Origin: Candidatus Planktophila limnetica
GTDB lineage: Bacteria > Actinomycetota > Actinomycetes > Nanopelagicales > Nanopelagicaceae
Direction: 5' to 3'
Assembly: GCF_002288365.1 (NCBI RefSeq)
Contig: NZ_CP016782.1
Span: 434,001-498,000, forward strand
DNA: 64,000 nt
This document shows positions 3,840 to 22,961 of this stretch, one piece after another; the stretch's first letter is position 1; every line of letters begins with the position of its first letter. The position numbers and the translations under genes are program-made. The notes beneath the pieces are model-generated. The model worked only from the letters and a program-made list of their open reading frames with translations, searched no databases and was not told where the DNA came from.

Positions 3840-4732
3840 TGGCCTTTTTGCACGCAGCGGGTTCTAAAGTAAGTTCCCTAAAAGAGAAGAGATCCTTACT
3901 TCCTTATCTACTGCTTGCACCAGGAATTATCTGGCTCTTTACATTCTTTGTTCTGCCAATTGCTAACCTCGCGCGAACATCTACACAAACTCCAGTTGCA
4001 AATGGTGAGACTGGTTCTTATGAGCAAACATTTAGATTTGCAAATTACATAGATGCATTTATTGATAACAAGGAACAATTCAGCCGTTCGTTCATCTATG
4101 CATTTTTAGCTACAGTTTTAGCTTTAGCCATTGCCTATCCATTGGCATATGGCATTGCATTTAAATCTGGGAAATATAAGAATTTATTGCTTGTTCTAGT
4201 CGTTGCTCCATTTTTCACATCATTTTTGCTCCGTACAATTGCCTGGAAGCAAATTCTTGGAGAAGAAGGCCCTGTCATCGCAGTACTTCGCGGTATACAC
4301 ATCATCGGTGAAAATACATCGCTGACGGCAAGTGCTTTTGCGGTTGTAACGGGAATGACCTACAACTTTTTACCATTCATGACCTTGCCCTTGTATGCCA
4401 GCTTAGAGCGAATAGATCCGCGGACGATGGAAGCAGCGGGAGATCTATATGCCAATGCAATCACAACTTTTAGAAAAGTAACGTTGCCACTATCGATGCC
4501 TGGAGTAGTTGCTGGAACCCTTCTTACATTTATTCCTGCAGCAGGTGATTATGTCAACGCAGCAATTCTGGGAAATCCAAACACCAAGATGCTCGGCAAC
4601 GTAATTGAATCTCGATTCTTTAAAATCGTGGATTATCCAACCGCTGCGGCGCTCTCATTTACATTGATGGCTGCAATTTTGATCTTGGTAACAATTTATA
4701 TCCGCAAGGCCGGAACAGAGGAACTCGTATGA
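3839..4732 (+). CDS. potB: Polyamine ABC transporter permease PotB
   Basis: Inner-membrane permease of the polyamine importer, 297 aa. A first hydrophobic helix lies at about residues 20-45, a long extracytoplasmic loop follows, and several membrane segments lead to the cytoplasmic EAA coupling loop (EAAGDLYANAITTFRKVTLPLSMPG split around residues 200-225) that docks on PotA. The start overlaps the potA stop by one base, and the end overlaps potC by four (ATGA). Confidence 0.9.
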   Translation: MAFLHAAGSKVSSLKEKRSLLPYLLLAPGIIWLFTFFVLPIANLARTSTQTPVANGETGSYEQTFRFANYIDAFIDNKEQFSRSFIYAFLATVLALAIAYPLAYGIAFKSGKYKNLLLVLVVAPFFTSFLLRTIAWKQILGEEGPVIAVLRGIHIIGENTSLTASAFAVVTGMTYNFLPFMTLPLYASLERIDPRTMEAAGDLYANAITTFRKVTLPLSMPGVVAGTLLTFIPAAGDYVNAAILGNPNTKMLGNVIESRFFKIVDYPTAAALSFTLMAAILILVTIYIRKAGTEELV

Positions 4733-5517
4733 AAATTACTTGGTGGTTTCGAAAGAACCTCATACGCGTATACATGGTTCTGGGATTTACCTATCTTTTC
4801 ATTCCGGTTGCATACACATTTGCCTTCTCATTTAACAATGGAGGTAAGAGCAATCTAGTTTGGAAAGGTTTCACTCTAGGAAATTGGCAAAATCCTTGTG
4901 GCGCTCCAGATGTGTGTGTAGCACTCGGCAACTCAATCCGTGTGGGACTAATCTCGACGGTGGCAGCAACGATGCTAGGAACATTAATTGCTTTTGCACT
5001 TGGTCGCCACCAATTCAAAGGTAGATCCACTACGAACACCCTAATTTTCTTACCAATGGCAACACCAGAAGTTGTACTCGGTGCATCCCTACTAGCAATG
5101 TTTTTAAATTTGGGTGTCAATCCAGGATTTTGGCCAGTAGTTATCGCCCACGTAATGTTCTGTATTTCTTTCGTAGTTGTGACGGTTAAAGCGCGCATCG
5201 CATCCCTTGACCCACGTCTTGAACAAGCGGCGATGGATCTTTATGCAAATGAGTTCCAAACTTTTAGAAAAGTTACCTTGCCACTAGTAGCACCAGGAAT
5301 TGCCGGTGCGGCATTACTTGCATTTAGCCTTTCATTTGATGATTTTATTATTACCAACTTTAACTCTGGCACGTTAACAACTTTTCCTAAGTTTGTTTAT
5401 GTTGCATCTGCACGAGGAATCCCTGCACAAGCCAACGTAATTGGTTCTGCAATGTTTTTCTTAGCTTTATTCATCGTAATAGCGGGTCAACTTGTCAGTC
5501 GGAGAAAAGCCCGCTAA
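4729..5517 (+). CDS. potC: Polyamine ABC transporter permease PotC
   Basis: Second permease of the importer, 262 aa, with about six hydrophobic segments and an EAA loop variant (QAAMDLYANEFQTFRKVTLP). The loop is close in sequence to the one in potB, as expected for the PotB/PotC pair. It overlaps potB by four bases and is the last gene of the tightly coupled potDABC run; a 132-base, unusually GC-rich gap follows before the FAD oxidase. Confidence 0.9.
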   Translation: MKITWWFRKNLIRVYMVLGFTYLFIPVAYTFAFSFNNGGKSNLVWKGFTLGNWQNPCGAPDVCVALGNSIRVGLISTVAATMLGTLIAFALGRHQFKGRSTTNTLIFLPMATPEVVLGASLLAMFLNLGVNPGFWPVVIAHVMFCISFVVVTVKARIASLDPRLEQAAMDLYANEFQTFRKVTLPLVAPGIAGAALLAFSLSFDDFIITNFNSGTLTTFPKFVYVASARGIPAQANVIGSAMFFLALFIVIAGQLVSRRKAR

Positions 5518-5530
5518 CCTATGAACAAGC

Positions 5531-5642
5531 CATAGCGAACTACAGATAGATATCTAAATATCTGCACTATGGGGTTAGGACTCCGGAGGACCCGGGCCAA
5601 CTACGATTTGTGATTGAAGGGGTGATTCCGGTTAAGGCCGGA
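5531..5642 (+). promoter_or_regulatory. Structured GC-rich leader before FAD oxidase gene
   Basis: Three predicted hairpins fill the gap. The first has CATAG (5531-5535) with CTATG (5567-5571), and inside it CAGATA (5543-5548) with TATCTG (5559-5564). The second is GGGTT (5572-5576) with GACCC (5589-5593), using one G-U pair. The third is TCCGG (5627-5631) with CCGGA (5638-5642), with TTAAGG in its loop. CCGG at 5583-5586 could instead pair with either strand of the third hairpin. The ATG at 5650 has no good SD except AAGG in that last loop. I compared it by eye with guanidine, glycine, TPP and SAM riboswitch signatures and recognised none. Confidence 0.4.
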
Positions 5643-5649
5643 TAGCGCG

Positions 5650-7062
5650 ATGTCAGACATCGACCCTCATATTCTTAAACATCTCTCTGTAATGCAGCCA
5701 GAACTTTATTGGCTAGATGCTGATCCACTAGAACCAGAACCACATCCAACGTTAATTGGCGATGTGACAACGGATCTTTGCATTGTCGGAGCTGGTTACA
5801 CAGGTCTTTGGACTGCGCTATTAGCAAAAGAGCGTAATCCAGAACGTGAAGTCATCATTGTTGAGCAACGCGAAACTGGATTCGGTGCATCTGGACGAAA
5901 TGGCGGGTTCTGTAATTCATCCCTTACTCACGGATTTCTTAATGGGTATAGCCGTTTTAAAAATGACATGCAAGATCTTGAACGTATGGGGCGCGAAAAC
6001 TTCAATGAAATTGAAGAGACTATTAAAAAATATGGAATTGATTGCGACTGGCAGCGCACAGGAGAACTTCGCATCGCTGTGAAGGATTGGCAATTAGATG
6101 GAATGAAAGAAGAAGCTGAGCTGCGCAATCAATATGGAGATCATGTTGAATTTTTAACACAAGCAGAAGTTCAAGCTCGCGTGAATTCACCAATTTATAA
6201 AGGTGGTTTGTGGGATGCCGATGGCACAGCCCTTGTTGATCCAGCTCGATTGGTATGGGGTTTGGAAAAAGTTTGCCTCAAACTCGGCGTTAAAATCTTC
6301 GAGAATAGCAAAGTAGAGTGGCTAGAACGCACGAGCGATGGAATTATCGTTCACACACCGTACGGAAGTGTTTATGCTGACAAAGTCGCACTTGCTACAA
6401 ATATTTTTAAATCTCTCATAAAGCGTGCACGTAAATATGTTGTGCCGGTTTATGACTTTCAAGTTGTTACAGAACCACTAACGCCCGAACAGTGGAAGGC
6501 AATTGGCTGGGCAGGTAAAGAAGGCTTGTCAGAGGCTGGAAATCAATTCCATTATTACCGCGTAACTTCTGAGGGAGCAATCTTGTGGGGTGGCTATGAC
6601 GCCATCTATCACTTCCGCGGTAAAGCTCGCCAAGAGTATGAAACTGATGCAGAGACGTATGCATATTTAGCTGCGGATTTCTTAGAAACTTTTCCACAAC
6701 TTAAGGGTATTAAATTCACTCACGGTTGGGGCGGAGCAATTGATACATGCTCTCGCTTCTCACCATTTTGGGGACGCGCATATCGAAACCGTGTTGCATA
6801 TGTTCTTGGATTTACCGGTCTTGGCGTTGCATCCACTCGATTTGGTGCGCAGGTGATGTTAGATCTAGTAGATGGCTTAGATACAGAGCGAACTCGCCTC
6901 AAGATGGTTCGCAGAAAGCCACTTCCATTTCCACCAGAACCTTTTAGATTTCTCTTCATTCGTCTGACTCAATGGTCGATTAATTACGCCGATGAGCATG
7001 ACGGCAAGCGAAATCTCTGGCTTAAACTCTTAGATCGCCTTGGTTTAGGTTTCGATTCTTAA
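5650..7062 (+). CDS. FAD-dependent amine oxidase, PuuB/DadA-like
   Basis: Flavoprotein of the DAO superfamily, 470 aa. The N-terminal dinucleotide-binding motif is IVGAGYTG at residues 45-52, followed by the acidic end of beta-2 (IIVEQ) and ASGRNGG, a motif shared by glycine oxidase, sarcosine oxidase and gamma-glutamylputrescine oxidase (PuuB). The C-terminal GFTGLGVASTRFGA is the second FAD-contact region. Context implies oxidation of putrescine or a derivative to the aminoaldehyde used by the dehydrogenase at 62. A glutamylputrescine synthetase (PuuA) is not in this window, so the true substrate (putrescine, gamma-glutamylputrescine, another amine) is open. The ATG at 5650 follows a structured leader. 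Confidence 0.75.
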   Translation: MSDIDPHILKHLSVMQPELYWLDADPLEPEPHPTLIGDVTTDLCIVGAGYTGLWTALLAKERNPEREVIIVEQRETGFGASGRNGGFCNSSLTHGFLNGYSRFKNDMQDLERMGRENFNEIEETIKKYGIDCDWQRTGELRIAVKDWQLDGMKEEAELRNQYGDHVEFLTQAEVQARVNSPIYKGGLWDADGTALVDPARLVWGLEKVCLKLGVKIFENSKVEWLERTSDGIIVHTPYGSVYADKVALATNIFKSLIKRARKYVVPVYDFQVVTEPLTPEQWKAIGWAGKEGLSEAGNQFHYYRVTSEGAILWGGYDAIYHFRGKARQEYETDAETYAYLAADFLETFPQLKGIKFTHGWGGAIDTCSRFSPFWGRAYRNRVAYVLGFTGLGVASTRFGAQVMLDLVDGLDTERTRLKMVRRKPLPFPPEPFRFLFIRLTQWSINYADEHDGKRNLWLKLLDRLGLGFDS

Positions 7063-22851: not shown

Positions 22852-22961
22852 GCGTGGGCAATGGTCCTCGGTAGTGGTTTCCGGAAAAATTAGTGCATCA
22901 AAATTGCACGTCCGTGAACTTCGATCGAAGATTCATTGTGCTCGACTCGGCTGTAGTCGAG
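22852..22961 (+). ncRNA. pnp leader, Actino-pnp-like RNA motif
   Basis: The 143-base gap before pnp contains GGTCCTCGGTAGTGG followed by TTTCCGG (about 22863-22884), which resembles the Actino-pnp motif known from 5' UTRs of actinobacterial pnp genes; the match is from memory. Three hairpins follow: GTGCA (22893-22897) with TGCAC (22905-22909), the palindrome CTTCGATCGAAG, and CTCGACT (22941-22947) with AGTCGAG (22955-22961). The last ends four bases before the pnp SD. PNPase commonly represses its own mRNA through such leaders. Confidence 0.55.

Follow-up and report, generated by a model that had tools for sequence, protein, structure and literature searches.

In genes 25 and 38 of phage T4, a hairpin brings a distant Shine-Dalgarno (SD) sequence near the start codon, shortening the SD-AUG distance from 27 to 11 nt in gene 25 and from 22 to 5 nt in gene 38, according to the portion of the source drawn on here (PMC3014915). 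Leader RNAs have also been described for genes of polyamine metabolism. The relevant section of the report on the spermidine riboswitch presents it as a variant of the SAM-I riboswitch that controls synthesis genes via transcription termination (PMC10853860). In the part of the survey covering the odc1 motif, this element appears as one hairpin with a pseudoknot, accompanied by UUG starts and an 11-codon upstream open reading frame (uORF), and the potE motif is given there as present only in Veillonella, about 200 nt from its gene and with poor covariation support (PMC8632094).

The leader analyzed here lies in a stretch of DNA of 64,000 nt (the window), in the gap (5518-5649) between a potC-like permease gene (4729-5517) and an FAD oxidase gene (Table 1). 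The window belongs to the Nanopelagicaceae, the freshwater acI Actinobacteria, which are among the commonest lake bacteria, and, to our knowledge, the regulation of these genes in such streamlined genomes is hardly known. We regard this leader as a new class, narrow in its distribution and unusual in its platform. As with the two T4 genes, a distant SD would be brought near the AUG by a hairpin, from about 24 to 8 nt, but unlike those structures, which the consulted portion of the source treats as initiation enhancers, the leader has a conserved 5' domain able to pair with the split site (PMC3014915). It shares with the spermidine riboswitch, as characterized in that section of the report, the connection of a leader RNA to polyamine metabolism, but it precedes an oxidase gene and lacks a SAM-I or other Rfam match as well as a terminator (PMC10853860). 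Like the odc1 motif, it is a structured leader in which the ribosome-binding site for a polyamine gene is embedded; unlike that motif, as outlined in the survey excerpt, it consists of two 5' hairpins and a bridging hairpin and has no conserved uORF. The potE motif is comparable as a weak riboswitch candidate preceding a putrescine gene, and it is the description of potE in the same excerpt alone that sets the oxidase leader apart from it (PMC8632094).

Screening with all 4227 models of Rfam 15 yielded no match to the leader. On positions 5500-5700, the best matches had E values of 0.66 or worse and were on the other strand, and among ten diverged loci, only two tRNAs and one match opposite a tRNA were detected. 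Across the whole window, the sole Rfam match at gathering level is an Actino-pnp RNA at 22860-22937 (59 bits, E 1.9e-10). No description of the oxidase leader was found in the literature searched, for which journal coverage was incomplete, and these organisms were not named in a term search of the accessible text of two RNA motif surveys. The preliminary description had proposed an undescribed structured RNA, with a significant Rfam hit or a lack of conservation set beforehand as refutation tests; given the lack of an Rfam match and the strong conservation documented below, this proposal stands.

Table 1. Features of the oxidase leader and adjacent elements (window coordinates).
Feature	Position	Strand	Basis or remark
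Promoter-like TTGTCA (5492-5497), 17-nt spacer, TAACCT (5515-5520)	5492-5520	+	-35-like hexamer read by eye
Hairpin 1: P1 (5530-5537 with 5565-5572), P2 (5543-5548 with 5559-5564)	5530-5572	+	Covariation
Hairpin 2: P3 (5574-5579 with 5597-5601), at its tip P4 (5582-5586 with 5592-5596), loop AGGAC	5574-5601	+	Comparison
Core ACUCCGGAGGACCCGGG, almost invariant; can pair internally (P4) or with 5620-5631 (Palt)	5580-5596	+	Alignment, alternative folds
Shine-Dalgarno sequence GGGGUGAU	5619-5626	+	Pairing with the 16S 3' terminus of this genome, GCTGGATCACCTCCTTTCT
Hairpin 3 (P5), after the Shine-Dalgarno sequence and before the start codon	5627-5642	+	97.1% of cells paired
Possible hairpin P6 (CGAUGU CAG ACAUCG) with start codon 5650-5652	5648-5662	+	93.9% of cells paired
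FAD oxidase gene, DAO family, 470 aa, putative regulated gene	5650-7062	+	Pfam PF01266; follows 104/108 distinct cores

The neighbors of the oxidase in the window include aminobutyraldehyde-dehydrogenase-like, PotD-, PotA-, PotB- and agmatinase-like proteins and a GABA transaminase, so that the gene sits in a putrescine/agmatine breakdown cluster, a context that is no proof of substrate. Comparison of a structure model (pLDDT 79.6) assigned the oxidase to the fold class of glycine/sarcosine/proline-type FAD enzymes at low identity, the nearest solved folds being glycine and sarcosine oxidases and similar enzymes (14-19% identity); a single-sequence search against the PDB and a search against PHROGs returned no match. 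The amine sensing suggested in the preliminary description would be plausible only in view of the polyamine operon around the window gene and the fold class of the oxidase. Stand-alone oxidases in other genomes adjoin unrelated genes, for example, corA, ettA and pstS, which provide no clue to a ligand. Oxidase paralogs with 44-46% identity were found in four genomes (G297, G301, G312, G315), each with one covariance-model match per genome.

The minimum-energy fold of 5518-5660 contains three main hairpins, in agreement with the initial reading of the sequence and backed by comparative evidence, and the CCGG blocks noted at that stage as competing are indeed able to pair in several ways. The folding energy of the single sequence is no better than that of shuffled sequences (z -0.58 and -0.70), so the structure is shown by conservation rather than by energy; the fold of the opposite strand likewise does not stand out from shuffles (z -1.16). 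The GC-richness attributed to positions 5531-5649 holds for the 3' 78 nt (59% GC, top 1%) but is modest for the stretch as a whole (50% vs 45% in the window), with 12.8% of the segments of the same length being as GC-rich. The gap itself was correctly delimited, but the element extends further, with promoter-like hexamers upstream and a possible start-codon hairpin reaching 5662.

Covariation in homologous leaders, the check proposed at the outset, was evaluated in alignments made in different ways. Alignment A1 excludes L025 and L026. Alignment A2 (72 distinct leaders minus 13 near-duplicates, 59 rows) was produced with MAFFT and not fitted to the structure, though the structure was read off it, whereas A3 was fitted to a covariance model, which matched all 90 chosen loci. 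In A2, 17 of the 36 pairs change on both sides and 92.9% of cells pair (58 distinct rows), with a covariation score of 0.252 vs 0.140 in shuffles (0/500) and at most 0.091 when partners were slid; in A3, both-side changes occur in 18/36 pairs and 94.5% of cells pair (82 distinct rows). P1, P2 and P3 covary. In hairpin 1, both-side changes that preserve pairing in A3 occur in 12 of the 14 pairs (cells paired: 95.9% in P1, 96.7% in P2), and the same holds for 3/5 pairs of P3 and 2/6 pairs of P5; P4 is almost invariant and hence without covariation. Because P4 and most of P5 hardly vary, covariation speaks neither for nor against these two helices. An unguided mutual-information scan of all column pairs ranked P1 and P2 pairs in the six top places; a P3 pair ties for the next rank with non-pairing columns, and more non-pairing columns score similarly. 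In L064, P3 consists of six pairs with different letters. A single leader among the 82 distinct A3 rows, L108 (2877-3015), has an altered P4 (CCCGAG); its P5 is also altered (CCAGC/GCUGG) and still paired, whereas P4 and Palt each lose one pair.

The possible start-codon hairpin P6 is less clear. AUC at codon 4 and CG before the AUG are each found in 84/90 loci, and orthologs without the leader keep the same codons; because the CATCG half is thus also kept in the absence of the leader, the support for P6 is ambiguous. In the genus represented by L072-L076, the start context of the oxidase is different (GGAG...CCC AUG), and the start-codon hairpin is lost.

The SD had previously been sought in the AAGG of the last hairpin loop. 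This assignment did not survive comparison with the 3' end of the 16S rRNA, which in this genome terminates in GGATCACCTCCTTTCT and with which GGGGUGAU pairs far better: across 82 leaders, the mean energy of the SD-16S duplex is -13.8 kcal/mol vs -4.3 for the loop and 3' strand of P5. We rejected AAGG as the SD for its weaker 16S pairing and its absence from the L024 loop; L024 and L053 carry GAGGUGAU in place of GGGGUGAU. From the end of the SD to the AUG, 22-26 nt intervene, of which the folded P5 leaves 6-9 unpaired (8 in 67/90 leaders). This arrangement quite probably constitutes a split ribosome-binding site bridged by P5. A uORF was considered as well and rejected: linker lengths fall into all three classes modulo 3 (43/27/12 of 82), so that no conserved uORF can span the linker.

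The leader is real and conserved, as judged by sequence comparison within and beyond the family. Of 100 relatives compared by BLAST, 24 have it. A covariance model based on 59 leaders matched 128 of 296 Nanopelagicaceae genomes (all searched members of the order belong to this family, that of the window), with E < 1e-8 in 118 and E values of 2e-6 to 6e-5 in the other ten; five of these weaker matches that were read (L110, L111, L114, L115, L116) represent a truncated form. In a class-wide survey of 345 genomes, 23 matched at E <= 0.01, of which 20 are inside the Nanopelagicaceae, including all those with E < 1e-8; the three weak matches outside the family (E 0.005-0.007) were treated as noise. 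A pattern combining the core with GGGGTG occurred in 19/394 class genomes, every one in the Nanopelagicaceae. A slightly stricter core pattern retrieved 113 stretches from a collection of 84,980 species, and the matches listed are named as actinobacteria, including Candidatus Planktophila, Candidatus Nanopelagicaceae and some implausibly named MAG records. Seven such records carrying the acI leader (L168, L176, L184, L194, L196, L198, L225) are titled Bifidobacterium breve or Streptomyces griseus and are probably mislabelled. A pattern match in a Streptomyces isolate genome (L203), with no oxidase downstream, was dismissed as chance. Viral contigs yielded 0 matches to the leader.

The association of the leader with the oxidase is close. 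The oxidase gene comes directly after 104 of 108 distinct cores; another three run into a contig end, two of them within the first codons of the oxidase, and the last is the chance match in Streptomyces. In several genera, the oxidase and its leader are found away from pot genes, and in all nine genomes picked for a stand-alone oxidase, the potC ortholog (59-81% identity) is located elsewhere. The leader stays with the oxidase where this gene has left the potABC operon and is therefore an element of the oxidase rather than of the operon. The covarying P1-P3 and the near-invariant 17-nt core span orthologs down to 65-66% protein identity, and in an oxidase tree of 74 rows, full leaders are present in all main branches with losses nested among them (for example, L104 without a leader vs its sister L105 with one). 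The parts follow in the order P1-P2 hairpin, P3-P4 hairpin, linker, SD, P5 and AUG. Comparative sequence analysis establishes conserved, covarying P1-P2 and P3-P4 hairpins and a strong SD, P5 and AUG with constant spacing, an arrangement linked to a single gene.

Upstream of the leader, the potC stop codon TAA (5515-5517) forms part of the -10-like box. A TAnnnT box ends 5-12 nt before P1 in 77/77 leaders, compared with a mean of 13.3 and a maximum of 21 in shuffles; 77 of the 90 leaders were kept for this test, those with less than 60 nt upstream or with identical upstream sequence being left out. This shuffle control is generous because the potC stop codon supplies TA where potC precedes. 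The box is also present in 14/14 followed-up leaders in whose locus no potC was seen (L064, L066, L072-L077, L079-L081, L090, L094, L108). A promoter at the potC stop codon would start the RNA at the foot of P1.

The family also provides a natural deletion series. Among 60 orthologs (L057-L116), 45 have a full leader, P1-P4 are missing from seven and the whole leader from six; one is cut by a contig end (L065), and one that is masked by N (L095) is counted as unknown. The seven leaders without P1-P4 (L100, L101, L110, L111, L114, L115, L116), which the oxidase tree places among full leaders, keep the linker, SD, P5 and AUG. P1-P4 are therefore separable from the initiation module and, on the basis of these deletions, look like a separable control domain. 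The six orthologs without any leader indicate that it is dispensable. In L103 and L104, the leader and SD are wholly lost and a TAAACT box lies less than 20 nt before the AUG; the oxidase mRNAs of these two may be nearly leaderless. The full, truncated and absent forms of a defined RNA element in close relatives make the role of the leader directly testable.

The core offers a second pairing. Its CCGGAG-G-ACCC is the complement of GGGU-GA-UUCCGG, which comprises SD bases and the P5 5' strand (the pairing termed Palt), and this capacity to pair with the ribosome-binding site suggests a translational switch. All eight central Palt pairs are possible in 79/82 leaders. The P4 fold is favored over Palt by 3.9 kcal/mol on average (extremes -4.2 and 13.0; 4.7 in the window), with mean ensemble probabilities of 0.65 for P4 and 0.08 for Palt, and three leaders (L020, L091, L096) fold into Palt by default. 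No Palt pair (0) changes on both sides, and the complementarity is only mildly unusual against shuffles (p 0.022 and 0.090). The CCGG of P5 is kept in truncated leaders devoid of the core and hence need not be kept for switching.

In the mechanism that we propose, P4 and P5 would form in the ON state, leaving the SD free, and P5 would fold away the extra distance such that about 8 nt separate the SD from the AUG. For the OFF state, we envisage an opened core that pairs instead with the P5 5' strand and the SD bases GGGU, hiding the SD and destroying the P5 bridge. The balance between the two states would be shifted by a metabolite sensed by P1-P4; the most likely ligand would be an amine linked to the oxidase, for example, putrescine, agmatine or some other substrate, and it would turn the switch ON. 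We see an even chance that the element is the 5' leader of an independent oxidase transcript working as a translational switch, and we are evenly divided on whether the leader has a metabolite ligand; the switch itself we consider less likely than not. Occurrence with one gene in one family would be an unusually narrow range for a metabolite riboswitch and counts against the switch reading. The most specific form of the proposal, a new riboswitch class restricted to the dominant freshwater Actinobacteria, in which the ligand of an amine-catabolic enzyme would control a split ribosome-binding site through a switch sequence that hides the SD and unfolds the bridging hairpin, appears rather unlikely to us. 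Finding a ligand might also show what the orphan oxidase acts on.

Several features would also fit a constitutive leader, in which mRNA protection would fall to the 5' hairpins and strong initiation to the split site, without any sensing: P4 is dominant on average, the SD is about half open in the ensembles predicted for the window's close relatives, and SD and P5 are retained even without P1-P4. The near-absolute 17-nt core and the covarying P1-P3, however, exceed the needs of protection, and the clean loss of P1-P4 in some lineages also argues against this explanation, which we consider unlikely.

Occurrence with one gene only, and movement with that gene, resembles leaders bound by their own product, and the oxidase or another protein could bind P3-P4 and repress translation. 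The GGA-containing pentaloop AGGAC on a fixed stem is, in our view, presumably similar to a CsrA-type site. The CsrA gene, however, is absent from the genome (0/1 genome searched; a control search was positive in 3/14 known genomes), which ruled out the leader as a CsrA target, and the oxidase is an ordinary DAO-fold enzyme in which no RNA-binding domain was found. Autoregulation is accordingly an improbable account of the leader.

In part of the leaders, two competing folds have similar energy, as would be expected of an RNA thermometer or salt sensor in which the SD is opened by melting. In the favored fold, however, the SD is already partly free, and a melting hairpin would presumably not need an invariant core, which makes such a sensor highly improbable.

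The chance that the element is a transcription terminator or the 3' end of the potDABC operon, the other possibility raised in the preliminary description, is close to nil: although it directly follows potC in many genomes, there are 0 intrinsic terminators (a GC-rich stem followed by a U tract) in 5300-5900, leaders precede oxidases without an upstream pot gene, the promoter-like TAnnnT lies just upstream of each leader examined, and the element holds the oxidase SD at a fixed spacing to the AUG.
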